IMG/VR virus record: IMGVR_UViG_3300035674_000008
Location: 1-38,544 of that record
Source of the DNA: a virus
Length of the DNA: 38,544 bases
Direction: 5' to 3' (one strand)
Positions 1,450 to 33,801 of this stretch are shown here, one piece after another (the first letter of the stretch is position 1; every line of letters begins with the position of its first letter). A program made the translations under genes and the position numbers. The notes under the pieces are model-generated. The model was not told the DNA's origin, made no database searches, and saw nothing but the letters and a program-made list of their open reading frames with translations.

Positions 1450-1679
1450 CCGCCGGCTCGATCCACCGGCTCAAGAGCGGCGGCGTCCTGGTCGACGTCG
1501 GCGACGAGTTCCCAGTTTGGCGGGCGGATGCGGGTGCTGCGCGGCGTCTGCTGCTGGAGCGGGATCTGCTGCGCCACCACTTCGACGTCCCGGCGTCTTC
1601 CTCCGTCGCGCCGGGATTGCCCGCCTCCCCCGGCGGGCCGGCGGCTGGGTCCACGTCCCCGGACTCGGCCGCCACCTAG
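1446..1679 (+). CDS. Unknown small protein
   Basis: The frame encodes 77 residues and starts at an ATG overlapping the previous stop (ATGA). The N-terminal 50 residues are mixed polar/hydrophobic and include a G-G-V-L-V-D-V-G-D-E-F patch. The C-terminal third is rich in Pro, Gly, Ala and Ser and is probably disordered. No family is recognised. It is the last gene before a terminator-like hairpin at 1696, so it closes the first early transcription unit. Confidence 0.55.
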   Translation: MTAGSIHRLKSGGVLVDVGDEFPVWRADAGAARRLLLERDLLRHHFDVPASSSVAPGLPASPGGPAAGSTSPDSAAT

Positions 1680-1695
1680 ACCCCGAAAAGCGCGA

Positions 1696-1723
1696 GTCCC
1701 GAGCGGCTGGAATCGCCCGGGAC
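1696..1723 (+). terminator. Terminator-like hairpin without a T-run
   Basis: GTCCCG (1696-1701) pairs with CGGGAC (1718-1723) and GCG (1703-1705) with CGC (1714-1716) across one A/C mismatch, leaving an 8-base loop. It is followed by a weakly T-rich stretch rather than a T-run. Actinobacterial terminators often lack the T-run, so it plausibly ends the 456-1679 unit. Confidence 0.5.
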
Positions 1724-1846
1724 CGGCCTTGCTTCATCTGACCGCAACCCGCCCATGAGTCGAGGTTCGATGTCTTCGCTGAGTATCGGTGCGCCTGGTT
1801 GTGCGCGCACCTGTTGTTCGCCATCTGTGACGAGGGACGCCCTGCT

Positions 1847-2122
1847 GTGCGTCTCCGGATCTTGCGCGGTGGCGTGGTGAGCGTCGAGGCGCGCCTGCTG
1901 CCGTCGCCTACGTCGCCGTTGTGGTCCGACATGGACGTGGTGTGCGAGCTGGTCGGTGCGGACCCTGCGGTGGTGGCGTACTGGTCGTCTCGGGTGTCGC
2001 CCGCTGCGCACGCCCTGGCGCATCCGCAGCCGCTATTCGGCTGCCCGGGGTGCCCGCCGGGCGGTGTGGACGAGGACCGGTCCGCGGAGATCCACGTGTG
2101 GCGTTTGGCGGTCGGGTCGTGA
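1847..2122 (+). CDS. Unknown protein
   Basis: The frame is open from 1742 but has no ATG. The candidate starts are TTG 1799 and GTG 1847. GTG 1847 has a GAGGGA sequence about ten bases upstream and gives a 91-residue product, so it is preferred; TTG 1799 would give 107. The sequence has an N-terminal basic beta-like stretch (R-L-R-I-L-R-G-G), an acidic/hydrophobic centre and a C-x-x-C pair in F-G-C-P-G-C-P-P-G that may bind metal. The stop overlaps the next GTG. No family is recognised. Confidence 0.5.
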   Translation: MRLRILRGGVVSVEARLLPSPTSPLWSDMDVVCELVGADPAVVAYWSSRVSPAAHALAHPQPLFGCPGCPPGGVDEDRSAEIHVWRLAVGS

Positions 2123-2322
2123 GCCTCAGTCCCCTGCAGGCCCTGCGTGCTCGTCGCGCGTGGGCGAACGCCGACCCGTACACCGTGGAGGAGCGTGAGC
2201 AGCTGCGCCAGTGCGTGGCGGTGGAGGCTGTCGCGGCGTGGAAGGCGGCGCAGCGTCCGATCGTCAAGGCGTTGTCGCGGCGTGCCCGCAGGCGTTGGCG
2301 GTCGCAGGGCGGCGCGTCGTGA
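2119..2322 (+). CDS. Small basic protein, unknown
   Basis: This is a 67-residue helical protein starting at the GTG that overlaps the previous stop (GTGA). It has a P-Y-T-V-E-E-R-E-Q-L-R-Q segment and a strongly basic C-terminus (R-R-A-R-R-R-W-R-S). It is translationally coupled with both neighbours. The basic tail could contact nucleic acid or an anionic membrane, but no family is recognised. Confidence 0.55.
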   Translation: MSLSPLQALRARRAWANADPYTVEEREQLRQCVAVEAVAAWKAAQRPIVKALSRRARRRWRSQGGAS

Positions 2323-2555
2323 CGGCCGTGCTGGTGGGGCTGGCGGTGGGCGTCTCCTCCGGGATCGGGGTCGCCTGCCTGCTGATCCGCCGCGCCCGCG
2401 GTCGCTGGGTCGCCGCCGGTCAGGCCCTCGAGGCGAACGCGCACGGGGTTGCGCCGCCGGTGCGCGAGCCCCGCCGGATCGCCCGCCAGATCGCCCGGCA
2501 GCGGGACTGGCGCCTGGTCGACAAGCAGTTGCCGGCGGAGCTGTACCGCCGCTGA
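2319..2555 (+). CDS. Small single-pass membrane protein
   Basis: This is a 78-residue product from a GTG overlapping the previous stop. Residues 2-22 are a hydrophobic Val/Leu/Gly/Ala segment, followed immediately by R-R-A-R-G-R, so an N-out/C-in orientation is expected. The cytoplasmic part contains R-R-I-A-R-Q-I-A-R-Q-R and ends with L-Y-R-R. Its role is unknown. It is one of three predicted small membrane proteins in this left arm. Confidence 0.6.
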   Translation: MTAVLVGLAVGVSSGIGVACLLIRRARGRWVAAGQALEANAHGVAPPVREPRRIARQIARQRDWRLVDKQLPAELYRR

Positions 2556-2630
2556 GCCGCGCCGCCGGCCGTGCATTCCGGCGCCCTATCCCTGCCGCAC
2601 CTTCCCCTCCCCAGACCCTGGAGGCAGTAC

Positions 2631-2855
2631 ATGAGTACGACCGATTCCATCCCGAAGGTCCGCGTGGTTGTGCCGCGGCACCTGGAGGACACCACGAAAC
2701 GGATCAGTCTGCGGCGGAAGGTGTTCCCGTACGAGGGCCGCCGCCGTCCGATGCCGGCCTTGCCGTCGCCGGTGCCTGCTCCGCTGCCCCCTTCGCCGGT
2801 GTCGTGGTGGCGGCGGGCGTTGGGCGCGGTCAAGCGGTCCGGGCGGGCGTCGTGA
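2631..2855 (+). CDS. Unknown small basic protein
   Basis: This is a 74-residue product from an ATG with a strong GGAGG Shine-Dalgarno a few bases upstream. It is one of the few genes here not coupled by overlap, so it probably initiates independently. It contains basic patches (K-R-I-S-L-R-R-K), a Pro-rich linker and a C-terminal amphipathic S-W-W-R-R-A-L-G segment. No family is recognised. Its TGA overlaps the next GTG. Confidence 0.6.
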   Translation: MSTTDSIPKVRVVVPRHLEDTTKRISLRRKVFPYEGRRRPMPALPSPVPAPLPPSPVSWWRRALGAVKRSGRAS

Positions 2856-3118
2856 GCGGCAAGCTGCCCGTCCTGCTGGTCTTGGCGGTGGTGTTCGGGT
2901 TGATCCTGTTCGTGTTCGGGGCCGCCATCCGTAAGGCGTCGCAGCTCCTGGACCGGGTCCTCGCCGAGGAGCCCACGGCCGAGCTGTTCCGGTCCGGTGA
3001 CGACCCGGGCGAGCTGGAGTTGATGGCCCGCACGGTCGGGGTGTGGTGGGAGGAGAACCCGGCCGAGTCCGCGGCGATGGCCCGTGCCCGGCAGATCCTG
3101 GCGGGTGATCGGCCGTGA
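2852..3118 (+). CDS. Small membrane-anchored protein
   Basis: This is an 88-residue product. After a short V-S-G-K-L leader, residues 6-24 form a transmembrane helix (P-V-L-L-V-L-A-V-V-F-G and onward). The remainder is a helical, acidic cytoplasmic domain with W-W-E-E-N-P-A-E-S. The GTG start overlaps the previous stop and the stop overlaps the next GTG. The function is unknown. Membrane localisation is the only supported statement. Confidence 0.6.
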   Translation: MSGKLPVLLVLAVVFGLILFVFGAAIRKASQLLDRVLAEEPTAELFRSGDDPGELELMARTVGVWWEENPAESAAMARARQILAGDRP

Positions 3119-3534
3119 CCGCCGACATCAACTACGACCTGCTTGGACAGCTGGCCACCAAGCCGCACAAGCACCTCAACTTCAAGGACGACGAACAGTA
3201 CGGCCTCATGGTCGACGGCGTGCTCCACGACGCCTGCAACAGCGTCAACGAAGTCATGCAGGAAGCGCGCACCGTCCAGCACCTCTGCGACTTGGCGAGC
3301 ATTCCCGAAGGCCGCGTCTACGACGCACACATCGACGCCCGCGTCTATCGCCTGACGGTGGAGCTGCAAGCGGCCCGCGAGCGGCTCGACCGGATCGCCA
3401 ACTGGCATTCACGCGAGACAGCCGGTGGCGGCATGGTCGGCGGCTTCTGCAACGAATGCGGCGAGCCGTGGCCGTGCGATACCCGCCGGATGGCCGACGG
3501 ATCGTACGTCGATGAGGACGGTGATCCCTCGTGA
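3115..3534 (+). CDS. Unknown protein with a C-terminal Cys knuckle
   Basis: This is a 139-residue protein from a GTG overlapping the previous stop. The first 100 residues look all-helical. Near residue 112 comes F-C-N-E-C-G-E-P-W-P-C, a C-x-x-C plus third Cys arrangement seen at the ends of many actinophage early proteins and likely to bind zinc. The context is the operon of small early genes from 2631 to 4218. The function is unknown. Confidence 0.65.
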   Translation: MTADINYDLLGQLATKPHKHLNFKDDEQYGLMVDGVLHDACNSVNEVMQEARTVQHLCDLASIPEGRVYDAHIDARVYRLTVELQAARERLDRIANWHSRETAGGGMVGGFCNECGEPWPCDTRRMADGSYVDEDGDPS

Positions 3535-3740
3535 CACCGGCATCGTCGCCGGGGTTCCCGGTGAACCGGCCGTACCGGCACCTGAAGAAGGCACGGCCGG
3601 GCTCGAACGCGGGCGGGCACTACCCGGCGGATCCGGTGACCGACCGGGCCAGGGAGATCATCGCGGAGGTCGCCGCGTACCTGGAGGCCGAGCGCGCCGT
3701 GGAGCAGATCGCCACCTTCCTGGACGGGGCATCCCAGTGA
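3531..3740 (+). CDS. Unknown small protein
   Basis: This is a 69-residue product from a GTG overlapping the previous TGA. The N-terminal 30 residues are Pro/Gly/Lys rich (P-Y-R-H-L-K-K-A-R-P-G). Residues 35-65 form a predicted amphipathic helix (A-R-E-I-I-A-E-V-A-A-Y-L-E-A-E). No family is recognised, and its stop overlaps the next start. Confidence 0.55.
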   Translation: MTPASSPGFPVNRPYRHLKKARPGSNAGGHYPADPVTDRAREIIAEVAAYLEAERAVEQIATFLDGASQ

Positions 3741-4063
3741 GTGACGTGCAGGTGTTCACGGTGCGGGAAGTCGCCGACCTCATCCGGGCCCACCTCGGCC
3801 CGCTGGCCGAACGGTACGCGGAGCAGGCCCGGCGGATGGGCGGGGCGGACCCGGATGCGCGGGCGAACCGGGCGCACTGGATCGGTCAGGCCCAAGGCGT
3901 CACGGACGCCCTCGAGGTGCTGCTGCCGGCGTTCGGGGTGGAGTCCCCGGGCGGTCGGCAGCCGTCCGGCCCGGCCCTGTTGCGGGAGCGGCAGGGGTCG
4001 CCGCAAGCGGTGGGCCGGGTGGCTGGCAACCGGGGTCCGGCGCTGGATCGGTGGGCGTCATGA
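3737..4063 (+). CDS. Unknown protein with an N-terminal HTH-like segment
   Basis: This is a 108-residue product. GTG 3737, which overlaps the previous TGA, is chosen because the nearby GTG at 3741 is out of frame. It opens V-F-T-V-R-E-V-A-D-L-I-R-A-H-L, reminiscent of the first two helices of an excisionase-type HTH, but the pattern then continues as a plain helix. The C-terminal 35 residues are Gly/Pro/Arg rich. DNA binding is possible but not established. Confidence 0.55.
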   Translation: MSDVQVFTVREVADLIRAHLGPLAERYAEQARRMGGADPDARANRAHWIGQAQGVTDALEVLLPAFGVESPGGRQPSGPALLRERQGSPQAVGRVAGNRGPALDRWAS

Positions 4064-6401: not shown

Positions 6402-7610
6402 TTGCCCATCAAGACCGTCCAGTCGCGCCTCACCCAGGTCGGGGTGATCCGCCTCGGCGAGCAGCGCGTCTCCCAGCGCGGCAGCAAGTACCCGGCGAAG
6501 CTCGAAACCTTCCGCTTCACGTCCCCGTCGAAGCCGCTGATCGACGCCGTCGCCGCCCTGTACGGCGGTGAGGTGAAGCCGTGGCAGGCCACCACCGGCC
6601 CGCAGTTCGAGGTCGTCACCGGCGCGAAGGAGGTGCCGGTGCTGGTGCCGCCGCAGCGCATCGACCCGAACCTCGAACTGTGGGGCAACGGGTTCCGGTC
6701 GCGCATGTGTGACGGGGAGACGGAGAAGCTGCGCAACCAGCCGTGCTTGTGCGCCGCAGCGGCGGCGGCCGGCCGTCGGGCGGATCCGCGGGAGACGTGT
6801 AAACCGACGACGCGGATGTCGCTGATGCTGGCCGACGTGCCGACCCTGGGCACCTTCAAGATCGAGTCGCACGGATGGAACGCCGCCGCTGAGCTGCCCA
6901 CCCTGGCGTCCGCGATCGAGAACGCCCCGCAGCCGATCCCGGCCCGTCTGGTGGTGGAGTTGCGGGAGAAGAAGGTGTTCGACCCGTCGAAGCCGCCGAA
7001 GGAGCAGGTCGAGACCCGCACGTTCATGGTGCCGGTGGTCCTGTTCGACTTCGTGACTCCGGCGCAGGCGTTCGGCGGCCAGATCGGCGCCGCCGCCCGC
7101 ACCGCTCTGGGCGGCGGGCGGCCCGCGCGGCAGGCGATCGAGTCGGCCGAGCCCGCGCAGGTTGAGCCGGCCCGGCGCAAGTACACGCCCGCCGAGTACG
7201 TGGGCATGGCGGAGCTCGCCACGAACATCGACCAAGTCCGGGCGTTGTGGACCGACGCGAACACCGACGAGGCACTGACCGACGCGGTGAAGGCGGCGCT
7301 GCAGGGGCGGGTCGGCGAGCTGAAGACTGCGGCGCAGAAGCCGGCCGAGGCTCAGGCGGAGGCGCAGCCCACGAACCAGCCCGCCCCTACCGCCCCGCAG
7401 GGCGACGTGCACGAGGTCGTCGACGCCGAGGTGGAGCCCAACGCCGACCAGGTCTGGATGCAGATCCAGGCCGCCGCCGGCGGGAAGGGCTGGAACGCCC
7501 CGCAGTTGGAGGAGCGGGTGCTGGCATTCCTGCACAAGCCGTCGGACGAGGCCAACGGGTTCGACCTGCAGCGCTTCCTCACCGCAGTCCAGGCGGGTGA
7601 GGTCGCGTGA
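6402..7610 (+). CDS. phiC31 gp3-like (recombination directionality factor family) protein
   Basis: This is a 402-residue product from a TTG start with a strong AAGGAG eight bases upstream. The first 250 residues follow the actinophage/Streptomyces family I recall as Gp3-like: V-Q-S-R-L-T-Q-V-G-V-I-R-L-G, K-L-E-T-F-R-F-T-S, a Cys cluster around residues 102-130, then T-R-M-S-L-M-L-A-D-V-P-T-L-G-T-F and E-S-H-G-W-N-A-A-A-E-L-P. In phiC31/phiBT1 the homologue switches serine integrase toward excision. It also sits among replication genes there, so a second DNA-metabolic role is plausible. The C-terminal 150 residues add an Ala/Gln-rich linker and a small helical domain. No integrase is in view, so the RDF role is unproven. 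Confidence 0.65.
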   Translation: MPIKTVQSRLTQVGVIRLGEQRVSQRGSKYPAKLETFRFTSPSKPLIDAVAALYGGEVKPWQATTGPQFEVVTGAKEVPVLVPPQRIDPNLELWGNGFRSRMCDGETEKLRNQPCLCAAAAAAGRRADPRETCKPTTRMSLMLADVPTLGTFKIESHGWNAAAELPTLASAIENAPQPIPARLVVELREKKVFDPSKPPKEQVETRTFMVPVVLFDFVTPAQAFGGQIGAAARTALGGGRPARQAIESAEPAQVEPARRKYTPAEYVGMAELATNIDQVRALWTDANTDEALTDAVKAALQGRVGELKTAAQKPAEAQAEAQPTNQPAPTAPQGDVHEVVDAEVEPNADQVWMQIQAAAGGKGWNAPQLEERVLAFLHKPSDEANGFDLQRFLTAVQAGEVA

Positions 7611-7954: not shown

Positions 7955-8451
7955 AGCGCTCCGAGCTGTCCCGTACGACGCCGCTGCTGCGGAAGACGCC
8001 TCTCACGTCGTTGACGCCGCTGGCCCGGTCGTCGCTGTCGCGGAACGCGGGCCCGAAGCTGCCGGCGAAGCCGAAGCGGGCGCGGGACACCGGCCCGTCG
8101 CAGCGCGTGCGGGGCCTGGTGGCGTTGCGGTCGGGTGGCATCTGCGAGTGGCCCGGGTGCGGCCAGCAGGCCACTGACCAGCACCATCGCTTGAATCGGA
8201 AGGCTGGCGGGCGGCACGGCGAGATGGCCGAGCGGATCAACCAGGCGGCGTGGCTGCTGCATGCCTGCCGCGACCACCACCGGGTGGTGACGTCCCCGGT
8301 TGGTGAGGCCCGTCTTCAGTCCCTGGCGATGGGTTGGCTGCTGCTGGAGGGCCACGACGCGCTGCGGGTGCCTGCGGTGACGCGGCACGGGCGGGTGTGG
8401 CTGACCAATGACGGCCGCTTCATCTGGTCCCCGACGGGGGTGTCCGAGTGA
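7951..8451 (+). CDS. HNH endonuclease-like protein
   Basis: This is a 166-residue product from a GTG overlapping the previous TGA. The N-terminal 48 residues are Ser/Thr/Lys/Arg rich and probably flexible. The core has G-G-I-C65-E-W-P-G-C70, then H78-H79-R, N97 and L-L-H104-A-C106-R-D-H109-H110. This is the zinc-ribbon plus His-Asn-His layout of phage HNH proteins such as NinG-type recombination nucleases. It lies directly before the Hjc-like resolvase, so a junction- or repair-related DNA cleavage role is favoured over a homing role. Confidence 0.75.
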   Translation: MKRSELSRTTPLLRKTPLTSLTPLARSSLSRNAGPKLPAKPKRARDTGPSQRVRGLVALRSGGICEWPGCGQQATDQHHRLNRKAGGRHGEMAERINQAAWLLHACRDHHRVVTSPVGEARLQSLAMGWLLLEGHDALRVPAVTRHGRVWLTNDGRFIWSPTGVSE

Positions 8452-8813
8452 GCAGCTACGCCCGGGGTCGCAAGTTCGAGTGGGACGTCCGCGACGACCT
8501 CGCCGAGAACGGCTACTCCGTGATCCGCGCCGCCGGCAGCAAGGGCAACGCGAAGGTCGACCTGATCGCCATCAAGCCCGGCCAGATCCTTTTCGTTCAG
8601 TGCAAAACCACGAAGGGAGCGCTGGGTCCGGACGAGTGGGACCGCCTCGTCGAGGTGTCGGCGTGGGTGGCTGCGGTGCCCGTACTGGCGTGCAAGGGCG
8701 GCCGGGGTGAAGGCATCCAGTACACCCGGCTGTTGGGCCCGAAGCGGCGTGGTGCTCGGACGCAGAACGTGGAGCCGTTCGTGGTCGACGAGCTCGCCGG
8801 GGCCGTCCCGTGA
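8448..8813 (+). CDS. Hjc-like Holliday junction resolvase (PD-(D/E)XK)
   Basis: This is a 121-residue product, the usual length for archaeal Hjc-type enzymes. The signature is complete: G-R-K-F-E11 in helix 1, R-A-A-G-S-K-G after the first strand, D38-L-I-A-I and V-Q51-C-K53. E11, D38 and the Q-x-K pair are the catalytic acidic and lysine residues. It would resolve branched DNA before packaging. The GTG start overlaps the HNH stop and the stop overlaps the next GTG, so it is tightly coupled to the recombination operon. Confidence 0.85.
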   Translation: MSSYARGRKFEWDVRDDLAENGYSVIRAAGSKGNAKVDLIAIKPGQILFVQCKTTKGALGPDEWDRLVEVSAWVAAVPVLACKGGRGEGIQYTRLLGPKRRGARTQNVEPFVVDELAGAVP

Positions 8814-9016
8814 CCGCCGCCCTGGTCGCCCCGGTCTACATCGCTACGCCGGGCCGTTGTGGCGCTGCCCACGTCGATGGCGGCCCGTGCTGCGGTGCCA
8901 CACCCGCGCGGCTGTACCCGGGCGGGTGGCGGTGCGCCGGCTGCGCCCCGGTCAACCGGGAGACGGGCCGCCCGCACCCGTTCCTGCATGTCGTGAAGGA
9001 GGACCCTCATGCCTGA
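8810..9016 (+). CDS. Small zinc-ribbon protein
   Basis: This is a 68-residue product from a GTG overlapping the previous stop. The cysteine pattern is G-R-C-G-A, P-C-C-G-A-T, then W-R-C-A-G-C-A-P, which would make one compact zinc ribbon, followed by a His-containing tail. Tiny one-ribbon proteins of this type are common in actinophage early operons. The function is unknown. Confidence 0.6.
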   Translation: MTAALVAPVYIATPGRCGAAHVDGGPCCGATPARLYPGGWRCAGCAPVNRETGRPHPFLHVVKEDPHA

Positions 9017-9452
9017 CCTGATGACGGATGCCCGTCCGGATGCCCGCGGGGTGTGCCAGGCGGTGTTCGCGCAGCTGCCCCCGACGGTGGACAGCACCCG
9101 AGTGCGGGCCGCCGTGTCCGCTGCGGTGACCGAGTTGGTGGCGCAGCAGTCCCCCACCCATCCGCTGCGCATGGCGGCGGTCGCGGTGCGGGCGCATCGG
9201 CGCGTCCGCCGCCGCCTGGTGGTGCGCCACGACCCGGACCGGCCGATCACCGACCGCCAGCTGCAGCTGCTGCACCTGCTCGCGCAGGGAAACACCGCCC
9301 AGGAGTCCGCGAAGGCCCTCTACGTCGGCGTCGACACCGTCAAGACGCATCTGCGCCGGCTGTACCAGCGGCTGGGTGCGCGCGATCGTGGGCACGCGGT
9401 CGCGATCGGGTTCCGCACCGGCCTGCTCGCGTGGGAGGCCTCGGATGCGTGA
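9009..9452 (+). CDS. LuxR-type (GerE) helix-turn-helix protein
   Basis: This is a 147-residue product whose ATG lies inside the end of the previous gene (8-base overlap), with GGAGG upstream at 8999-9003. The C-terminal 65 residues carry the LuxR/FixJ DNA-binding domain: I-T-D-R-Q-L-Q-L-L-H-L-L-A-Q-G-N-T-A, then V-G-V-D-T-V-K-T-H-L-R-R-L-Y-Q-R-L-G. The N-terminal 80 residues show no receiver or autoinducer domain. It could control later phage genes or host promoters; its targets are unknown. Confidence 0.8.
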   Translation: MPDLMTDARPDARGVCQAVFAQLPPTVDSTRVRAAVSAAVTELVAQQSPTHPLRMAAVAVRAHRRVRRRLVVRHDPDRPITDRQLQLLHLLAQGNTAQESAKALYVGVDTVKTHLRRLYQRLGARDRGHAVAIGFRTGLLAWEASDA

Positions 9453-9705
9453 CCCGTCGGCTGGGCCCGTGTTGCAGTTCCGTGCCTGCTGGATGGCGCT
9501 GGCCAACGGTGAGTTGGTGCCCGCGCACACCTGGGACAGCCGGGTGTCGTGCCCGCGCCATGACTGGCCGATGTCGCAGGTGCCGCCGCGGACGACCGGG
9601 GCGTGTATCCGCACGTACCGGCAGGTCGATGACGCCCCCAGCTTGCCGCCGGGGCCGTGGCATCGCCGGATGCCGCTGCTGGCCCGCGTGTGGGGTGCCC
9701 GGTGA
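9445..9705 (+). CDS. Unknown protein
   Basis: This is an 86-residue product whose ATG overlaps the previous gene by eight bases. It is rich in Trp, Pro, Arg and Cys (C-W-M-A-L-A-N-G-E-L-V-P, S-C-P-R-H-D-W-P-M). There is no clear domain. It lies between two DNA-binding proteins and is coupled to the next gene by a GTGA overlap. Confidence 0.5.
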   Translation: MRDPSAGPVLQFRACWMALANGELVPAHTWDSRVSCPRHDWPMSQVPPRTTGACIRTYRQVDDAPSLPPGPWHRRMPLLARVWGAR

Positions 9706-10202
9706 GCCTGTTCACGCTGCGGTGGGTGTGGCCGGTCGTGGACCCGGCGGCGTTCCCGTCGGAGTCGGTCGCGTTCGCCCGTGCCGAACTGGCGGAGATC
9801 GCCGAAGCCCGCGGTGTGGTGTACGCGGGTGAGCCGGTGTTCCGGATCGTCGACTGCACGCCGGAGCAGGCGCGCCAGGTGAAGGCGGCCACGGCGGTGG
9901 TGGGCGAGGTCGAGGTCGTACCGGCCGGCGCGCCGATCCCTGACCGCCCCGCGGCCACGCTGCGCCCGGTCCCGTCCGTGCCGGTCCCGGCCGGGGTGGA
10001 CCCCCTGATCGGGCAGCTGTTGCACCTGCGCACCCGGCGCAACCTCCCCCCGTTCCAGCTGAACCAGGAGGCGGGGTTGGCGCGGGGCAGCGTGCAGCAG
10101 ATCGAGGCCGGCGCTCGGGTGCCGAAGCTGTCTACCCTGCGCGCCCTGGCGGACTTGTTCGACTGCGACCTGGTGCTCGTCGCCCGGGACGGTGCCCGAT
10201 GA
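9702..10202 (+). CDS. Two-part protein with C-terminal XRE helix-turn-helix
   Basis: This is a 166-residue product from a GTG overlapping the previous stop. Residues 1-90 are an alpha/beta region without an obvious match. A Pro-rich linker (P-V-P-S-V-P-V-P-A-G) leads to an XRE domain: L-R-T-R-R-N-L, N-Q-E-A-G-L-A-R-G-S-V-Q-Q-I-E-A-G, then L-R-A-L-A-D-L-F-D-C-D-L-V-L-V. The last segment recurs almost word for word in the next gene and in the one at 12293, indicating paralogy. Confidence 0.7.
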   Translation: MSLFTLRWVWPVVDPAAFPSESVAFARAELAEIAEARGVVYAGEPVFRIVDCTPEQARQVKAATAVVGEVEVVPAGAPIPDRPAATLRPVPSVPVPAGVDPLIGQLLHLRTRRNLPPFQLNQEAGLARGSVQQIEAGARVPKLSTLRALADLFDCDLVLVARDGAR

Positions 10203-11782: not shown

Positions 11783-12048
11783 GCGACCCCCGCACCGAGA
11801 TCCGCGACCGCATCGTCCGCCGCCTCAACACCGACGAGTGGATGACCGAACACTTCGGCATCGCCTGCCACGCCGGGGACGTCGCCGACGCCGTCCTGGA
11901 GCTGTTCGGCGAGGTCGGTGAGGAGTCCTTCTTCGCCACCGAGGGCGTCATCGGGCCACCCGGCGGACCGGGTTCGGCCAGTCACCGCAGCCTTGTGCTG
12001 CGCACCGTCCCCGAGGAGCTCCCGACCGAGGAGGGAAGTCAGCCGTGA
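11779..12048 (+). CDS. Unknown protein
   Basis: This is an 89-residue product from a GTG with AAGGAG upstream, overlapping the previous stop. It has an acidic N-terminal helical region (E-I-R-D-R-I-V-R-R-L-N-T-D-E-W-M) and a Gly/Pro-rich middle. Similar starts occur in small Streptomyces phage proteins, but no function is known to me. It is coupled to the LexA-like gene that follows. Confidence 0.55.
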   Translation: MSDPRTEIRDRIVRRLNTDEWMTEHFGIACHAGDVADAVLELFGEVGEESFFATEGVIGPPGGPGSASHRSLVLRTVPEELPTEEGSQP

Positions 12049-12293
12049 CCGCCGCCGTGGCCCCGCTGCTGACTGGTCGGCAGCGCGCCGTCCTGGACTT
12101 CATCCGCCGCCACTACCTGGATCACGGCTACTGCCCGTCCCTGCGGGAGGTGGCCGCGGCGACCGGTCTGGCGTCGGCGTCCACCGCCAACCATCACGTG
12201 CAGGAACTGCAGCGCATGGGGTGGATCACGCGGGTGCCGGGGCGGCCGCGGACCATCCGGGTGCTGAACCCGGCGGACGGGAGCGACACGTGA
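12045..12293 (+). CDS. Stand-alone LexA-type DNA-binding domain
   Basis: This is an 82-residue product from a GTG overlapping the previous stop. It matches the LexA N-terminal winged helix: L-T-G-R-Q-R-A-V-L-D-F-I, Y-C-P-S-L-R-E-V-A-A-A-T-G-L-A-S, then V-Q-E-L-Q-R-M-G-W-I and a wing ending R-T-I-R-V-L. The LexA C-terminal autoprotease (Ser/Lys dyad) is absent. It could bind SOS-type operators without being cleaved, so an SOS-independent repressor or decoy role is inferred. Confidence 0.8.
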   Translation: MTAAVAPLLTGRQRAVLDFIRRHYLDHGYCPSLREVAAATGLASASTANHHVQELQRMGWITRVPGRPRTIRVLNPADGSDT

Positions 12294-16719: not shown

Positions 16720-17606
16720 CATGGTTCAAAGTCGACGACTCGTTCTACGACCACCTCAAGGTGTTCGACGCCCCCGACTGCGCCGTGGCGTTGTGGGTTC
16801 GCGCCGGCGCCTGGGCCGCACGGAACCTCACCGACGGGTTCGTGCCGTCCGGGATGCCCGCACGTCTCTGCGACGACGCCGACAACGCAGTCAAGGAACT
16901 CGTCCGCCGCAAGCTGTGGTCACGCGTGAAGGACGGTTACCGGTTCCACGACTGGACGAAGTACCAACCGACACGAGAGTCAGTCGAACACGAGCGTGAG
17001 GCCGCGACCGAACGCAAGCGGCGCGAGCGGGACCGCCGCAAATCCGAGAAGGCGCAGGTCAACACGCCTGCCGTCACGGACACGTCACGGCGTGACGCCC
17101 CCGTGACGGCAGGCGTGACTCACGGGGCTGTCACAGCCCCCCGACCCGACCCGACCACTTCTTCTAACGAAGAAGTCCTTGGGTCGCCTGCGGCTCCCCC
17201 CGGCATCGAAGACGACCGGACCAAGAACGGCACCCGGATCCCCGACGACTTCCAGGTCACCCCTGCGATGGTCGAGTGGGCCAAGCGGGTCTGCCCAGAC
17301 ATCGACGGCAGGTCCGAGACCGCCAAGTTCATCAACTACTGGCAGGCCAAGCCCGGCAAGGACGGACTGAAGCTCAGCTGGAACCGCACCTGGCAGAACT
17401 GGATGCGCACCGCTCAAGAGCGACGAACGCAGCCTCGCCAGAACGGGTCGCTGGGATCGTTCGGCGCGGAATCCAACGCCCCGAAGAACTACAAGGCCGG
17501 CCTTCGCTGCGAACTGCACCCCTCGCAACCGAAGAACACCTGCGGATCGTGCCGCGCCGAACAACTCGCCGCCGGCCGTCCCGCCACAACACGGAGGGCG
17601 TCATGA
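16716..17606 (+). CDS. Replisome organiser / replication initiation-like protein
   Basis: This is a 296-residue product from a GTG overlapping the previous stop. The N-terminal 85 residues are typical of phage replication organisers: M-T-W-F-K-V-D-D-S-F, W-V-R-A-G-A-W-A-A, D-G-F-V-P and L-W, ending F-H-D-W-T-K-Y-Q-P-T. A charged linker (R-K-R-R-E-R-D-R-R-K) follows. Residues 170-235 resemble a DnaT/DnaD-like domain: I-P-D-D-F, M-V-E-W-A-K-R, F-I-N-Y-W and W-N-R-T-W-Q-N-W-M. It ends with a C-E-L-H...C-G-S-C zinc knuckle. It sits directly before DnaB and probably loads that helicase at the phage origin. Confidence 0.75.
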   Translation: MTWFKVDDSFYDHLKVFDAPDCAVALWVRAGAWAARNLTDGFVPSGMPARLCDDADNAVKELVRRKLWSRVKDGYRFHDWTKYQPTRESVEHEREAATERKRRERDRRKSEKAQVNTPAVTDTSRRDAPVTAGVTHGAVTAPRPDPTTSSNEEVLGSPAAPPGIEDDRTKNGTRIPDDFQVTPAMVEWAKRVCPDIDGRSETAKFINYWQAKPGKDGLKLSWNRTWQNWMRTAQERRTQPRQNGSLGSFGAESNAPKNYKAGLRCELHPSQPKNTCGSCRAEQLAAGRPATTRRAS

Positions 17607-18994
17607 GCACAGCACCCGAGGAAGCCACACCCGCACGGCATCTACACGCCGTTGATGACGTCACCTGGTCTCAACATCCAATGGCCGACACGGCCGCCGA
17701 ACAGGTCGTCCTCGGCATGATGATGACTTCCCTCAGGGCGGTCGACGAGGTCGCCGACCAGATCACCGCCCGCGACTTCTCCACCGTCCGCCACAGCACC
17801 CTGTTCACTGCGCTCATCGGCCTGTGGGCGGCCAACGGCCCTACCGACCCCGTAGCTGTCGCCCGCGAGCTCGATTCCGCCGGGGAACTCGAACGCGCTG
17901 GCGGGATCCCGTACCTGCACACCCTCACCGAGCGGGTCCCCACGACCGCCGGCACTGCCAGCTTCTACGCCCGGATCGTCACCGACTGGGCGAAGCGGCG
18001 CCGGATCCGCGAAGCGGGACTACGGATCGTGCACACCTCGCAATCGCTGCAGAAGCCCGTCGACGAAGTTGTCGACACCGCCCAAGCCGAAATCCACGCA
18101 GCGACCGTCAACCAGACCACCGGCACCCTCGCCCACTACGGCGAGTTCGCCGACGGAGAACTCGACCACCTGGAGAAGCTCATGAACGGTGACATCAGCA
18201 AGGGCCTCAGTTCGGGCATCGGCGCCCTGGACGACCTGATCGGCGGGTTCCTGCCCGGCCAACTCGTCATCCCCGCCGGCCGCCCCGGGATGGGCAAGTC
18301 GACGGCTGGCCTCGGATTCGCCATCGCGGCCGCCCGGCGCGGACACCCGGCGCTCGTGTTCAGCCTCGAGATGTCGAAGCGGGAACTGACGTGGCGGATG
18401 CTGTCGGCCGTCGGAGACATCGAACTGTCCGCGTTCACGACCGGGCGGATGACCCCGCAGCAGTTCGCAGCCGCCAAGAAGGCGTCGAAGGAAGTCGCGT
18501 CGTGGCCCATCCACATCGACGACCAGTCCCACACCGTGGCTGACATCCGTTCGGCGGCCCGTCGGTTCCGGCAGCGCCACGACAGCCTCGGCATCGTGTT
18601 CGTCGACTACCTGCAGCGGATCCGTTCAACGCAGAAGTTCGACCGGCGCGACCTCGAGGTCGGCCGCAACGCCTCTGACCTGAAGACGCTGGGGCAGGAG
18701 CTCGGTACCACGATGATCGTCCCGGCGCAGCTGAACCGGGGGCCGGAGTCCCGCACGGACCGCCGGCCACAGCTGTCCGACATGCGTGACAGCGGTGAGA
18801 TCGAGCAGGAAGCCGACATCGTCATCCTGCTGCACCGAGACGACTACTACGACAAGGAGTCCCCCCGAGCAGGTGAAGCGGACTTCATCGTGGCCAAGCA
18901 CCGTAACGGGCCGACCGACACGGTCACGGTCGCGGCGCTGCTGCACCGCTCCCAGTTCGCCGACTACGGCATCCCGTCCGAGCCGGCGGTCTGA
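17603..18994 (+). CDS. dnaB: Replicative DNA helicase, DnaB family
   Basis: This is a 463-residue product, normal for DnaB. The ATG overlaps the previous TGA with GGAGGG upstream. The N-terminal helical domain (A-A-E-Q-V-V-L-G-M-M-M) is followed by a linker and the RecA-like motor. Walker A is G-R-P-G-M-G-K232-S-T, motif H1a is F-S-L-E-M-S, Walker B is V-F-V-D335-Y-L-Q, and motif H3/H4 contains P-A-Q-L-N-R-G, S-G-E-I-E-Q-E-A-D and K-H-R-N-G. It unwinds DNA at the phage fork, loaded by the upstream organiser. Confidence 0.93.
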   Translation: MSTAPEEATPARHLHAVDDVTWSQHPMADTAAEQVVLGMMMTSLRAVDEVADQITARDFSTVRHSTLFTALIGLWAANGPTDPVAVARELDSAGELERAGGIPYLHTLTERVPTTAGTASFYARIVTDWAKRRRIREAGLRIVHTSQSLQKPVDEVVDTAQAEIHAATVNQTTGTLAHYGEFADGELDHLEKLMNGDISKGLSSGIGALDDLIGGFLPGQLVIPAGRPGMGKSTAGLGFAIAAARRGHPALVFSLEMSKRELTWRMLSAVGDIELSAFTTGRMTPQQFAAAKKASKEVASWPIHIDDQSHTVADIRSAARRFRQRHDSLGIVFVDYLQRIRSTQKFDRRDLEVGRNASDLKTLGQELGTTMIVPAQLNRGPESRTDRRPQLSDMRDSGEIEQEADIVILLHRDDYYDKESPRAGEADFIVAKHRNGPTDTVTVAALLHRSQFADYGIPSEPAV

Positions 18995-28365: not shown

Positions 28366-30417
28366 ATGCCCGCCCTGCCCACCCGGACCCTCGGCCACGT
28401 CGACGACAGCACCTACGGTGCGCTGCTGTCCGACGCGCTCGAACACGTCGGCGACGTGCAGTGGCCGACGTCGACGCGCACGTATTCGATGATGCGCCGC
28501 GATCCGCAGCTCACCGGTGTGGTCGACGCCTATCAGCTGTTGGTGCGGCGGGCTTCGTGGACGCTGGACCCGGCGGGCTGCCGGCCGGAGGTGTGCCGTC
28601 TCGTCGCCGACGACTTGGGCCTGCCGCTGGCCGGTCAGGACCAGCCGGGTGCGGCGCGGGTGCGTGGCGTGTCGTGGCGTGAGCACCTGCGGATGGTCAC
28701 CGAGTCGTTCGTGTTCGGCCACTACGGCTTCGAGCTCGAAGCCGACGTGTCCAGCGGTCAGGCGCGCCTGGCCGGGCTGTGGGAGCGGCCGCCGCACACG
28801 ATCAGCCGGATCCACGCCGACGGGAAGACCGGCGCGCTGAAGGGCGTCAGCCAGACCCCGGCGTGGAAGGAAGGCGCCCCGGAGATCCGCGCGGAACATC
28901 TGGCGTGGTACTGCTTCGACAAGGGTGTCGGCTGGACCGGCACGAGCCTGCTGCGTCCCGGATTCGGACCGTGGCTGATTAAGCGGGAGCTTCAAGCCGC
29001 GCTGGCCACCGGGTCACGACGGTTCTCAATGGGCGTCCCCCTGGTGGAGTGGGCGACGGATGCCCGCCCGACCCCGGAGCAGCACGCGCAGGCCCACGCG
29101 GTCGCGTCCGCGGCCCGGGGCGGTGAGACCGCCGGCGCCGCCCTCCCCCCGGGCGCCCGCCTGGTGCTGGCCGGGCTGCAAGGCTCCGTGCCCGACACGC
29201 TCGGGTTCCTCAAGTGGATCGATTCCCAGCTGTCCGGCATGGCCCTGGCCCGGTTCATGGACCTGGGCGAGTCGTCCAACGGCTCCCGCGCCCTCGGTGA
29301 GAGCTTCGTCGAGTTCTTCACCCTCGCCGTGCAGACCGCCGCCGACGACATTGCCGAGGTCGCCACGAGGCAGGTGGCGGCGCGCCTCGTCGAGTGGAAC
29401 TACGGACCCGACGAGCCCGTCCCGGCCGTCCGGGTCGCTGACGTGCGGTCCCGGCGTGAGGTGACCGCGGAGGCGCTGAAGACTCTGCTGGACTCCGGCG
29501 GGCTGTCGTCGGATCCCGGCCTGGAGGAGTACATCCGGCGGGAGTGGCGGCTGCCGCAGCGCGAGCAGGCGTCGCCGCCCGCGCCAGTACCGACGCCGTC
29601 TCCCGCTCCGCCCGTGGCGGCATCACGCCCGCGGTCGAAGCGCCGGCAGCCGTCAGGGCAGATGGCCCTGTTCGCCGCCGCGGAGGACCCCGACCCGGCC
29701 CCGGACTACGCGCAGATCCAAGCCCAGTGGGAGCAGGCCAAAGCGGACCTGCTCGCGCAGTGGCCGGTTGCGGCGCAGCCGGTGGTGGATGAGCTCGTTC
29801 AGCAGGCCGAGGGCGCCGTGGAAGCCGACGACCTCGGCCTGCTGGGCGCCCTCGCGGTGTCGGCGGGTGTGGTGGCGGCGGTGTCGCTGCTGATCGGCGA
29901 CGCGGGTGTGGGTTTGGCGGTGGAGGCGGCGGCGGGTGTGGTGGCTGAGGCCGCCGCGCAGGGTGTCACCGTCGCCGCCCCGGACACGCCTGGCGCCGAG
30001 CGGGTGCGGCAGACCGCGGACGCGGTGGCCGCGGTGATCGCCGCCGGGTACGCGTCCGGTGCCGCACGGGCGGCGTTGCAGGTTGCGGGCGCGGACCGGG
30101 ACACGGTGAGTGCCGCGGTCCGGGCGCACCTGGACGAGCTCGGCACGTCCGTCAACGGGCTCGTCGGGGACAACGTGGGCGCGCTGCTGTCGGCGGCGCA
30201 GAACGCCGGACGCCTCGCCGTTCTTGAGGCGGCGCCCGCTGCCACCTACAGGGCTGTAGAGGTCAACGACAAGAGTCGATGCGGCCCTTGCTCGGAGATC
30301 GCGGACACCGAATTTGCCAGCCTCGCCGAAGCCGTCGCCGCATATCCCGCCTCGGGGTTCCGCGACTGCGACGGAAAGGGCCGCTGCAGAGGCTTCCTTT
30401 TTCCGCTGTTCACCTGA
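28366..30417 (+). CDS. Portal protein fused to a MuF-like head morphogenesis domain
   Basis: This is a 683-residue product. Residues 1-400 have the DUF935/Mu gp29-type portal layout (S-M-M-R-R-D-P-Q-L, W-R-E-H-L-R-M-V-T-E-S-F-V-F-G-H-Y-G-F-E, G-E-S-F-V-E-F-F-T-L-A-V-Q-T). A Pro/Ser/Arg-rich linker of about 35 residues follows. The C-terminal 240 residues are helical and end in a MuF signature: V-N-D-K-S-R-C639-G-P-C642, Y-P-A-S-G-F-R-D-C-D-G-K-G-R-C-R-G. In most phages these are separate genes. The portal forms the DNA entry ring, and the MuF part is usually a minor capsid or injected protein. Confidence 0.85.
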   Translation: MPALPTRTLGHVDDSTYGALLSDALEHVGDVQWPTSTRTYSMMRRDPQLTGVVDAYQLLVRRASWTLDPAGCRPEVCRLVADDLGLPLAGQDQPGAARVRGVSWREHLRMVTESFVFGHYGFELEADVSSGQARLAGLWERPPHTISRIHADGKTGALKGVSQTPAWKEGAPEIRAEHLAWYCFDKGVGWTGTSLLRPGFGPWLIKRELQAALATGSRRFSMGVPLVEWATDARPTPEQHAQAHAVASAARGGETAGAALPPGARLVLAGLQGSVPDTLGFLKWIDSQLSGMALARFMDLGESSNGSRALGESFVEFFTLAVQTAADDIAEVATRQVAARLVEWNYGPDEPVPAVRVADVRSRREVTAEALKTLLDSGGLSSDPGLEEYIRREWRLPQREQASPPAPVPTPSPAPPVAASRPRSKRRQPSGQMALFAAAEDPDPAPDYAQIQAQWEQAKADLLAQWPVAAQPVVDELVQQAEGAVEADDLGLLGALAVSAGVVAAVSLLIGDAGVGLAVEAAAGVVAEAAAQGVTVAAPDTPGAERVRQTADAVAAVIAAGYASGAARAALQVAGADRDTVSAAVRAHLDELGTSVNGLVGDNVGALLSAAQNAGRLAVLEAAPAATYRAVEVNDKSRCGPCSEIADTEFASLAEAVAAYPASGFRDCDGKGRCRGFLFPLFT

Positions 30418-30428
30418 TCGGAGCGCAC

Positions 30429-30641
30429 GTGCGCAACCTCGAAGGGCGCCACCCCGGCACGGCAGGGATCGCCCGGTTCTTCACCTACGAACACCTCCCC
30501 CAGCATCTGCAGGCCACGTCGAAGGCATGCCACGACCTCGCCGACCAGATGATCGGCGACCTGCCCGACCGCCCCGAGCTGACCGCGGGGCTGCGCAAGC
30601 TCCTCGAAGCCAAGGACTGCTTCGTCCGCGCCGCTCTCTAG
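30429..30641 (+). CDS. Acb2/Tad1-hairpin-like protein, candidate cyclic-nucleotide sponge
   Basis: This is a 70-residue product from GTG 30429. It consists of F-F-T-Y20-E-H-L-P-Q-H-L-Q followed by a helix (S-K-A-C-H-D-L-A-D-Q-M-I), a P-D-R-P-E turn and a second helix (L-T-A-G-L-R-K-L-L-E-A-K-D-C-F-V-R). The F-x-Y plus helical hairpin, and the A/G-L-x-x-L-x-x-A-K end, match phage Acb2 (T4 Vs.4-type) and related small proteins that sequester CBASS signals. The match is from memory and the protein is short, so function is inferred. It lies between the portal and the 2H/protease gene in the head operon. Confidence 0.6.
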   Translation: MRNLEGRHPGTAGIARFFTYEHLPQHLQATSKACHDLADQMIGDLPDRPELTAGLRKLLEAKDCFVRAAL

Positions 30642-30653
30642 AAGGGGGTGGCT

Positions 30654-32471
30654 GTGGCTGACCAGCCGAAGACGAAGGGCATGGTCGCCCTCGTCCCCAC
30701 CGAGGCGGACGCCGCGCGCCTCGCCACTGAGGGCGGCCTACCGGCCGGCGAGCTGCACCTGACGCTCCTGTTCCTCGGCGACGCCGACGACTGGGACGAC
30801 GACGCCCGGACGGCGCTCGTCGAAGCAATGCGCGGCCTCGAACGGTCCGGCGTGGTCAACGGAGACGCGTTCGCGCTGTCCGTCTTCAACCCGGGCACCG
30901 ACGAACGGGACACCTGCATCGTCCTCGGCGTCGGCGGGACAGCCGTGGACGACGCCCACACCGCCGCCGTGGGCGCAGCCCCACCAGACAGCCTGCCGGA
31001 GCAACACCAGCCGTGGGCGGCGCACGTCTCCCTGATCTACACCGATGACCTGTCGAAGCTGGCCGAGCTCGTTGACCGCACCGGCCCGATCGTGTTCGAC
31101 CGGATCCGGGTCGCGTTCGCCGACACCGTCACTGACATCCCTCTCGCCTCCCAGGCGGACGACGCTGCCCCGGAGGCGCGCGTGAATCCCTTCCTGCGTA
31201 ACCCGTCCGCGTACAAGCGGACCCCGATCCGCGCCGAGCTGCCGACGGCGAAGTCCGGCCCGGCCGGCGTCGTGACGCTGCGCCTGTACGACCCGATCGA
31301 CGACTGGGGCGCCGACTGGGGCGTGTCCGCGAAGGAGTTCGCCGCGGTCCTCGATGCCCTCCCCGACGACACCCGCGAAATCCGGCTGCTGATCAACTCG
31401 CCCGGCGGGAACGTCTGGGACGGCCTCGCCATCCTGAACACGCTGCGGTCTCACCCGGCCCGCTTCGTCGCCGTGGTGGAAGGCATCGCCGCGTCGGCGG
31501 CGTCGTTCATCGCCGCGGGCGCCGACGAGCTGACGATGATGCCGAACGCGCGCCTCATGATTCACCGGGCCTGGGGCGGCTGCATCGGCAACGCCGTCGA
31601 CATGGAAAAGATGTCCGCCGACCTGGCCGGCGAAGACCAGAACCTCGCCTCGATCTACGCCGCCAAGGCCGGCGGGACGGCCGAGGAGTGGCTGGCCCGC
31701 ATGACCAGCGAGACCTTCATCTCCGCCGACGAGGCCGTCGAGCTGGGCCTCGCGGACAGGATCGTCGAGCCCCCGCCGGGCGCGAAGGACGCGGTTGCGG
31801 AGGCGAAGGCCCGCTTCGACCTGTCGGTGTTCCAGAACCGGGCCAGCATGCCCGGCTCCCCTGCGGGGTCCGCACCGACGGCCGACCCGCCAACCCATCC
31901 GGCCGCCCCCGGCGCCGTCACCGAACTCCCGGCCGCCGAGCCGGAGCCCACAACCGAGAAAGAGGAGGACCCTGTGTCCGACGATCTGAGCGAGGTCAGC
32001 TCGCGGCTCGGCCTCGCAGACGACGCCGACATGGTCGCCATCCTGGCCGCCGTGGACGCGCTGAAGGCCCAGGCCGAAACCCCCGCCGAGCCGGTCGCGG
32101 CCGTCGAAACCGAGGCGGTGAAGCAGGAGGCCGACGAGCTCCGCAAGGAGGTCAGCGTCCTGGCGTCCACGGTGCAGTCGATGTCGGCGAAGCTCGCCGC
32201 GTCGGAGGCCGAGAAGGCCGCCGGCATCAAGGCCAGCGTCCTGGACGAGGCGCAGCGCCTCGGCAAGTTCGCCCCGGCTGACCGGGCGACGTGGGAGGCC
32301 GACTACGACGAGGCGCCGGGTGCGATCACCCGCCTGCTGAACCGGATCGAGCCCGGCACCGCCGTGCCGATCCGCGCGAAGGGCGAGGTCGGCGACGCCG
32401 AGCCGGACGTCGACCAGGCCCGCATCGCCGAGATCGACAGCATCTTCTCCGTCAAGCCGAAGGGGAACTGA
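30654..32471 (+). CDS. 2H phosphoesterase - ClpP-like head protease - scaffold fusion
   Basis: GTG 30654 is placed six bases after GAAGGGGG; GTG 30648 overlaps that site. Of 605 residues, about 1-165 form a 2H phosphoesterase domain with E-L-H35-L-T37-L and A-A-H124-V-S126-L, the paired H-x-T/S motifs. About residues 205-375 are a ClpP/S49-type protease (I-N-S-P-G-G-N-V, G-I-A-A-S281-A-A-S as serine elbow, M-I-H304-R-A-W-G). The last 170 residues are a Glu/Ala coiled coil typical of scaffolding. The protease processes the prohead. The 2H domain may cut 2'-5' or cyclic phosphodiester bonds. Confidence 0.85.
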   Translation: MADQPKTKGMVALVPTEADAARLATEGGLPAGELHLTLLFLGDADDWDDDARTALVEAMRGLERSGVVNGDAFALSVFNPGTDERDTCIVLGVGGTAVDDAHTAAVGAAPPDSLPEQHQPWAAHVSLIYTDDLSKLAELVDRTGPIVFDRIRVAFADTVTDIPLASQADDAAPEARVNPFLRNPSAYKRTPIRAELPTAKSGPAGVVTLRLYDPIDDWGADWGVSAKEFAAVLDALPDDTREIRLLINSPGGNVWDGLAILNTLRSHPARFVAVVEGIAASAASFIAAGADELTMMPNARLMIHRAWGGCIGNAVDMEKMSADLAGEDQNLASIYAAKAGGTAEEWLARMTSETFISADEAVELGLADRIVEPPPGAKDAVAEAKARFDLSVFQNRASMPGSPAGSAPTADPPTHPAAPGAVTELPAAEPEPTTEKEEDPVSDDLSEVSSRLGLADDADMVAILAAVDALKAQAETPAEPVAAVETEAVKQEADELRKEVSVLASTVQSMSAKLAASEAEKAAGIKASVLDEAQRLGKFAPADRATWEADYDEAPGAITRLLNRIEPGTAVPIRAKGEVGDAEPDVDQARIAEIDSIFSVKPKGN

Positions 32472-32473
32472 CC

Positions 32474-32833
32474 GTGGCCGAGTACACCGCGCCGATCCCT
32501 TCCGCGCACGCCTACACCCTGACCGCGTCCGCCGCCGTCACCGGCGGCCGCGCGGTCGCCGTCTCGGGCAACGGCACCGTCGCCCACGCCGGTGCCGCCG
32601 CCCCGAACGTGGTCGGCGTCGCCTCCGTCGACATCCCCGCCAACGGCGAAGGCAAGGTCGACCTGCGTGGCCCCGTCCACGAGGCCACCGCCTCGGGCGC
32701 GATCACCGCCGGGGACCGCGTCAACGCCGCCGCGAACGGCACCGTCGCCACCGGCGCCGCCGCGTTCACGAACATCGGCATCGCCCTCACCACCGCCGCC
32801 GACGGCGCGCTGGTCCGCTACGTCGGCCTCTGA
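32474..32833 (+). CDS. Head decoration protein (DUF2190-like)
   Basis: This is a 119-residue product from GTG 32474, two bases after the protease-scaffold stop. The sequence is beta-rich and Ala/Gly/Val heavy: V-T-G-G-R-A-V-A-V-S-G, V-V-G-V-A-S-V-D-I-P, and I-T-A-G-D-R-V-N-A-A-A-N-G-T-V. This is typical of DUF2190 capsid cement proteins. It lies between the scaffold and the major capsid gene, as such proteins do, and would bind the expanded head surface. Confidence 0.8.
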   Translation: MAEYTAPIPSAHAYTLTASAAVTGGRAVAVSGNGTVAHAGAAAPNVVGVASVDIPANGEGKVDLRGPVHEATASGAITAGDRVNAAANGTVATGAAAFTNIGIALTTAADGALVRYVGL

Positions 32834-32868: not shown

Positions 32869-33801
32869 ATGCCCGGTTCTTACCCCGGCGCTGCGGCCAC
32901 CCTCTCGGGTGTCCTCCTCCAGATCGACACCCTGCTCAACTCGCCCACGCTGATTCGCCGGCGGCTGCAGACCCTCGGTGATCTGCGGTTCGCCGCGGAC
33001 CAGATCCTCACCGGCCGGTACCGCTCCAGCGGCGGTGCGGTGATGGGTGAGCAGAACGAGCCGCTGTTCACCAACCGCCCCGTCGAGGCTGTGGCGCCGG
33101 GCGCGGAGTACCCGTTCGCGAACGTGACGCGCGGTGTGCCGACGCTGCAGGCGGTGAAGAAGTGGGGTCAGGCGGTCGAGCTGACCGACGAGCGGATCAA
33201 GCGGTACGTGAACGGTGGTGACGAGGTCGACCGGATTTTCCGGCTGGTCATCAACTCGGTCATCAAGAAGGTCGACGCCCTCGCGATCGCGAAGATCGCG
33301 TCGAACGTGTCGGCCACGCAGCCCGCGTCGGCGGGTTGGGCGAACTCGTCGGCGACGATCCTGCGGGACATCGAGCGTGCCCGCGCCGCCGTCGTCGACC
33401 TCGACATGGGGTTCGTGCCCGACACGATCCTGATGAAGACCACCCGCTACGCCGACATGATCACCGACGAGAAGGTGAACACGCTGCGGCGTCGGGAGAC
33501 CACCGACAACCCGATCTACGGCGGCGCGGTGGACACGTTCGCCGGCCTGAAGGTGGTCACGACGTCGGCGGGCAACCTCCCGACCGACGACGTCTGGCTC
33601 ATCGACAGCAACCAGCTGGGCGGCATGGCCGACGAGGCCGAGGTCGACCCCGGCTACACCGTCGCCGAGCAGGCCGTGCAGATCCAGTCCGAGCGGATCC
33701 CGCGCCGCGACAAGTGGGACCTGTGGGGCCGACGCATCACCGTGCCCGTCGTCAACGAGCCCGGTGCCGCCATCCGGATCACCGGCACGAACGCCGCCTG
33801 A
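32869..33801 (+). CDS. Major capsid protein, HK97 fold
   Basis: This is a 310-residue product from an ATG with AAGGAG upstream. The sequence has features of actinophage HK97-type capsid proteins: an N-arm with L-L-N-S-P-T-L-I-R-R-R-L, E-Y-P-F-A-N-V-T-R-G, W-G-Q-A-V-E-L-T-D-E-R, and a C-terminal P-domain strand (R-R-D-K-W-D-L-W-G-R-R). No long cleavable delta domain is present, in keeping with a separate scaffold in the upstream fusion. It is the dominant virion protein. Confidence 0.9.
   Translation: MPGSYPGAAATLSGVLLQIDTLLNSPTLIRRRLQTLGDLRFAADQILTGRYRSSGGAVMGEQNEPLFTNRPVEAVAPGAEYPFANVTRGVPTLQAVKKWGQAVELTDERIKRYVNGGDEVDRIFRLVINSVIKKVDALAIAKIASNVSATQPASAGWANSSATILRDIERARAAVVDLDMGFVPDTILMKTTRYADMITDEKVNTLRRRETTDNPIYGGAVDTFAGLKVVTTSAGNLPTDDVWLIDSNQLGGMADEAEVDPGYTVAEQAVQIQSERIPRRDKWDLWGRRITVPVVNEPGAAIRITGTNAA

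Follow-up and report, generated by a model that had tools for sequence, protein, structure and literature searches.

A sponge-like hairpin gene and a neighbouring LigT-like 2H phosphoesterase domain among the head genes of a phage

Results

The phage head operon studied here probably carries two independent cargo elements side by side, a member of a sponge-like hairpin branch (ORF A) and a virion-linked 2H phosphoesterase domain (part of ORF B), which would act separately; we put the probability of this reading at roughly 0.6. By profile comparison, ORF A belongs to a new branch of the Acb2/Tad1 hairpin superfamily that is large, very widespread and unstudied, and this family may blunt bacterial alarm signals. 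The 2H domain fits a virion-linked kind that had already been described.

Organization of the head operon

The DNA analysed, referred to as the window, is IMG/VR virus record IMGVR_UViG_3300035674_000008, a stretch of 38,544 bases for which no near-identical DNA relative was found among annotated phage records. ORF A and ORF B are separated by a gap of 6 bases, and both lie between the Mu-type portal gene upstream and the cement and major capsid genes downstream (Table 1). The original prediction that a sponge-like gene and a 2H domain adjoin each other in the portal-to-capsid interval was confirmed in part. The 2H domain that it placed next to ORF A is real but does not constitute a separate gene, as it forms the N-terminus of the ORF B head protease precursor. 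Elsewhere in the window, genes for a recombination directionality factor-like protein (6402-7610, PF18897), an Hjc-like resolvase (8448-8813, PF01870), a LexA-type DNA-binding protein just 82 aa long (12045-12293, PF01726) and a DnaB helicase (17276-18994, PF03796) hint at a temperate phage.

Table 1. Features of the head operon in the window, with the support for each assignment.
Feature	Position	Strand	Support
Portal protein, Mu type, with MuF-like C-terminal part (aa 501-683, labelled by eye)	28366..30417	+	PF06074 E 2.7e-39; phrog_113
ORF A, 70 aa, GTG start; putative nucleotide sponge, divergent Acb2/Tad1 hairpin relative	30429..30641	+	phrog_5120 3.1e-28; model; hairpin profile; hhalign with controls
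ORF B, 607 aa: 2H domain, ClpP-type head maturation protease and scaffold-like tail	30648..32471	+	
2H phosphoesterase domain, LigT-like, ORF B aa 1-175	30648..31172	+	PF13563 28.4 bits; model pLDDT 91.5; LigT-type folds Z ~15
First 2H motif, H37-L-T39	30756..30764	+	sequence
Second 2H motif, H126-V-S128	31023..31031	+	sequence
ClpP-like head maturation protease domain, ORF B ~aa 206-390	31263..31817	+	PF00574 1.9e-33; NF045542 166.5 bits (cut-off 120 bits)
Mu I-like scaffold part, ORF B aa 434-571	31947..32360	+	PF10123 25.7 bits (cut-off 25.2)
Phage cement protein	32474..32833	+	PF09956 4.7e-11
Major capsid protein	32869..33801	+	PF25209 3.8e-15; phrog_1650 1.1e-67

Kinship of ORF A with the Acb2/Tad1 hairpins

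ORF A is a genuine and common gene. Its relatives are present in 368 phage records and 507 viral-contig stretches, and the titles of the bacterial genomes that carry them cover Actinomycetota, Pseudomonadota, Bacillota, Cyanobacteria, Chloroflexota, Planctomycetota and others. ORF A had no match in Pfam or NCBIfam, and in PHROGs it matched only families of unknown function. The core of the family, PELxxGLRKLLEAKDCFVR, is near-invariant among relatives collected with search patterns that favoured that core. The position of the gene varies from the early regions of Gordonia and Rhodococcus phages to the head region in Acinetobacter, and in further phages it lies near the terminase, portal, tail or amidase genes; this mobility between genome regions fits accessory cargo. 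In two loci, L047 (6001-6210) and L113 (8001-8210, a Glycomyces artemisiae prophage), the ORF A relative has an in-frame stop after 16 residues.

ORF A had been labelled as Acb2-type in the original prediction. ORF A itself did not match PF24729, the Pfam model of the Acb2/Tad1 hairpin (cut-off 27 bits), and it is not a member of the family as Pfam defines it. The best PF24729 match among 122 ORF A relatives had an E-value of 0.01, and true Acb2-family proteins reach 59-71 bits with this model; across 49 broad ORF A relatives, PF24729 was the most frequent sub-threshold Pfam match. A PF24729 search of the ORF A phage records found none, and so did a search of some bacterial genomes, which carries little weight because the controls were silent too. 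Direct membership was also examined and rejected: no Acb2 emerged when solved structures were searched with phmmer or with a profile, and neither hhalign nor hmmsearch supported a relation to PaMx- or T4-type Acb2, indicating that ORF A has no direct similarity to the Acb2 proteins tested.

Comparisons between profiles gave a different result. When a profile of 46 actinophage hairpins, gathered around locus L316, was searched against 16,056 six-frame ORFs of the ORF A loci, all 13 matches at E<0.1 were ORF A genes. Aligned with this set in hhalign, ORF A reached 84.7% and a score of 31.3, compared with a maximum of 16.3 over 200 column shuffles. Against a smaller hairpin set it scored 28.9 (maximum over 300 column shuffles, 17.4; reversed alignment, 10), while T4 Acb2 and PaMx-type Acb2 scored 24.1 and 23.7 against that same set, indicating that ORF A is no more distant from the hairpin group than accepted members are. 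With the ORF A profile, Saintus and 1706 each outscored all 3,000 shuffles. Together, the profile comparisons show ORF A to be a remote homologue of the Acb2/Tad1 hairpin superfamily, and the bridge runs through the actinophage/Lactococcus 1706 type of PF24729 only. What stands of the Acb2-type label is a profile-level kinship to the actinophage branch.

The AlphaFold model of ORF A (pLDDT 96) consists of a short helix (residues 9-18) and two long antiparallel helices (25-44 and 49-68). The Acb2 protomer has the same layout, with a short N-terminal helix and two long antiparallel helices (PMC12043709), and by eye the invariant R67-A68 of ORF A seems to align gaplessly with the conserved R-A of Acb2 helix 2. 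With Foldseek against the PDB and with VIA-align, the matches listed were all generic helical bundles, with no Acb2 chain among them, and in a viral structure library several weak matches beyond the direct relatives bear the name Acb2/Tad1 hairpin. We infer a sponge function for ORF A.

In one prophage locus, L145 (Rhodococcoides fascians, 7992-9866), the gene directly after the portal gene begins with an ORF A-type hairpin domain and continues in frame into what looks like an HK97-type prohead protease and major capsid protein. The same fusion starts at ~7992 in the L151 prophage (Rhodococcus sp.), after which the contig ends. The protease and capsid labels in both loci were assigned by eye, and a sequence search of solved structures gave no match. 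Such a fusion could reflect either a virion-linked sponge or a role in head assembly.

A LigT-like 2H domain at the start of ORF B

The isolated 2H domain scored 28.4 bits with PF13563 (cut-off 27), compared with 25.3 bits for full-length ORF B. With both HxT/S motifs intact and a 2H fold in the model, the domain belongs to the 2H superfamily. Among 85 sequences (the window and 84 relatives), the first motif is HxT in every one, and the second is HxT/S in 55, HxC in 28 and HxA in 2. HxC replaces HxT/S in the second motif of about one third of the head-fused 2H domains (L214-L293), a pattern that would fit altered catalysis in one sub-branch.

The domain had been taken to be of the Acb1 type, and this assignment did not hold. 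T4 Acb1 matches PF23474, the Pfam Acb1 family, at 202.7 bits (E 2.7e-60), whereas the 2H domain of the window gave no PF23474 match at E<=1 and is LigT-like instead. In structure searches with the 2H model (pLDDT 91.5), LigT-type enzymes came out on top at Z ~15 and Acb1 scored Z 11.5; because the Foldseek TM-scores were only ~0.5-0.6, the order of the matches alone was used. A profile of the 2H domain searched against solved structures gave low E-values for LigT-type relatives only.

Relatives of the 2H domain occur in head polyproteins that also contain a MuF, Mu-type protease or ADP-ribosyltransferase domain. ORF B likewise has its 2H domain fused to a head protein, which fits the virion-linked polyvalent 2H proteins. 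Fusions of this kind were published in 2017 by Iyer et al., who proposed that they act as RNases or destroy defence nucleotides after delivery (PMC5512222). In L300 (2344-5787) and L303 (1999-3801), a repeated helical segment lies on either side of the 2H domains, and a single in-frame TGA lies within the frame that encodes the 2H domain of Gordonia phage SCentae (MK977696, 40822-41319; L211).

Co-occurrence of the two elements

The original prediction proposed a candidate two-step module, and the survey that we ran does not bear out a conserved one. Among 148 other ORF A loci, a 2H domain lies inside the flank (~5 kb) in four (L002, L012, L065 and L101) and is adjacent in two. It should be noted that a tblastn-based count of pairs missed three of the four, all of which were recovered by profile search. 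A 2H domain was found in 1 of 47 canonical hairpin loci, namely the seed, and only one of 80 head-type 2H loci, L262, has an ORF A gene, on the same contig as L002. At the level of whole records, 2H was present in 1 of 24 ORF A viral records (G002). Looser associations are a canonical hairpin gene ~3 kb from a head-type 2H domain in L247, and Gordonia phage SCentae, which has both ORF A and 2H, ~35 kb apart. An apparent hairpin-2H fusion in L303 was not counted, since its 16-bit match lay over a different, helical repeat region.

The window is nevertheless not the only place where a sponge-like gene sits beside a catalytic-looking 2H domain. That observation, made for this head operon, was borne out, and L002, L012 and L316 also have the two side by side, which makes no fewer than three arrangements. 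One lineage comprises the window and L002, where the 2H domain is built into head precursors whose proteases are of two different types. In L012, a different phage, ORF A (853-1071) overlaps by 8 nt a stand-alone 2H gene (1064-1543) of 159 aa with two HxT motifs. In L316, which shares its contig with L327, a canonical Acb2/Tad1 hairpin gene (3702-3911) overlaps by 1 nt the stop of a 2H-bearing gene (1105-3702), whose 865-aa product has ART-like, ParB-like and 2H parts (the ART and ParB labels were assigned by eye). The flanks total 1.76 Mb and hold four 2H genes, from which a rough estimate on very small numbers gives ~0.02 adjacent cases by chance. Recurrence above this level makes some functional link possible, but a common parking place for counter-defence cargo accounts for it as well as joint action does.

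Discussion

In the mechanism that we consider most likely, the ORF A protein would oligomerise and soak up a host nucleotide alarm signal. The 2H domain, following Iyer et al. (2017), would hydrolyse a 2',3'-cyclic or 2'-5'/3'-5' nucleotide or an RNA end, and it would do so either while particles assemble or once the virion has delivered it (PMC5512222). The adjacency of ORF A and ORF B would then arise because both elements use late operons as a parking place. Because the pair rarely neighbours elsewhere, a dedicated two-step module is unlikely.

A paired mode of action, in which one cyclic-nucleotide signal is bound by ORF A and broken down by the 2H domain, perhaps from the virion, draws on the side-by-side placement seen in the window, L002, L012 and L316 (where the neighbour is a canonical hairpin), on the intact HxT/S motifs of the window copy, on the presence of a nuclease and a sponge together in T4 (PMC11722364), and on the proposal that head-protein 2H domains degrade defence nucleotides (PMC5512222). 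We regard it as quite improbable, given that the pair is missing from 144 of the 148 other ORF A loci and from all canonical hairpin loci except the seed, that the 2H domain falls outside the Acb1 family, and that the window and L002 count as one lineage. It would also be a long shot that ORF A founds a huge nucleotide-sponge family whose members can be virion-linked, being encoded beside head protease and capsid precursors or fused into them (the window, L002 and L145/L151), and which, with a packaged 2H domain, would provide capsid-borne early counter-signalling.

Two further alternatives each concern one of the elements. ORF A could be a head-assembly or scaffold helper, with the hairpin as a structural part of capsid precursors rather than a sponge. 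Its frequent location near terminase and portal genes fits this idea, as does the L145/L151 fusion, in which an ORF A-type domain is joined in frame to what looks like a prohead protease and capsid protein; the fusion sits ill with the reading of two independent cargo elements, since a purely independent sponge leaves it unaccounted for. A helper of this kind is unlikely, however, because ORF A occurs as a lone gene far from the head genes in the early regions of Gordonia and Rhodococcus phages, is patchily present among unrelated phages, and is homologous to the Acb2/Tad1 hairpin superfamily. The 2H domain, for its part, may work on RNA ends or tRNA fragments, in repair or as an RNase similar to LigT or Usb1, or may be a partly structural insert, and in either case would be unconnected to nucleotide signals. 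We take this as a serious possibility at somewhat less than even odds: LigT- and Usb1-type enzymes lead the matches, and 30 of the 85 sequences have HxC or HxA as their second motif, which suggests that catalysis is not always retained, whereas the window copy has both motifs intact and its fold relatives include enzymes that cut defence nucleotides. Set against these alternatives, two separately acting cargo elements remain our preferred reading.

If ORF A proteins are sponges, hundreds of phages across many host phyla would gain anti-signalling equipment among what is now phrog_5120 and phrog_1761, of unknown function, and curated models would greatly understate how common Acb2-like counter-defence is. 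The in-frame fusion of an ORF A-type domain to an apparent capsid precursor would make virion-delivered counter-signalling directly testable.

Compared with known systems, the arrangement is not new in general, as both head-operon sponges and phages with a nuclease plus a sponge are already known. T4 encodes Acb1 plus Acb2, a nuclease and a sponge in one phage (PMC11722364), JBD67 has an Acb2-family gene (PF24729 E 3.4e-16) between the genes for the major head protein and the head-tail adaptor, Vibrio phage D79 has one after the portal gene, and the virion-linked 2H fusions date from 2017.

Like the Acb2/Tad1 hairpins of the Mycobacterium phage Saintus type and the Acb2 proteins of T4 and PaMx, ORF A is a small roaming phage gene for a short helix and two long antiparallel helices, and the motif F-x-Y..P..LA..LP.g.E....L..A is common to both in register; the core differs, being PELxxGLRKLLEAKDCFVRA in ORF A and EKxLAxTxLExAxxWANA in the Acb2/Tad1 hairpins. 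The 2H domain of the window shares the 2H fold and two HxT/S motifs with Acb1 (T4 57B, PF23474), but it is closer to LigT and is fused to a head protease. The LigT or 2'-5' RNA ligase-like phosphoesterases (PF13563) are its best fold and profile matches, and, unlike these enzymes, it is built into a head maturation protease precursor. In having a 2H domain fused to a phage head protein, ORF B resembles the virion-linked polyvalent proteins described previously (PMC5512222), whereas its fusion partner is a ClpP-type maturation protease with a scaffold instead of MuF or portal, and a sponge-like gene adjoins it.
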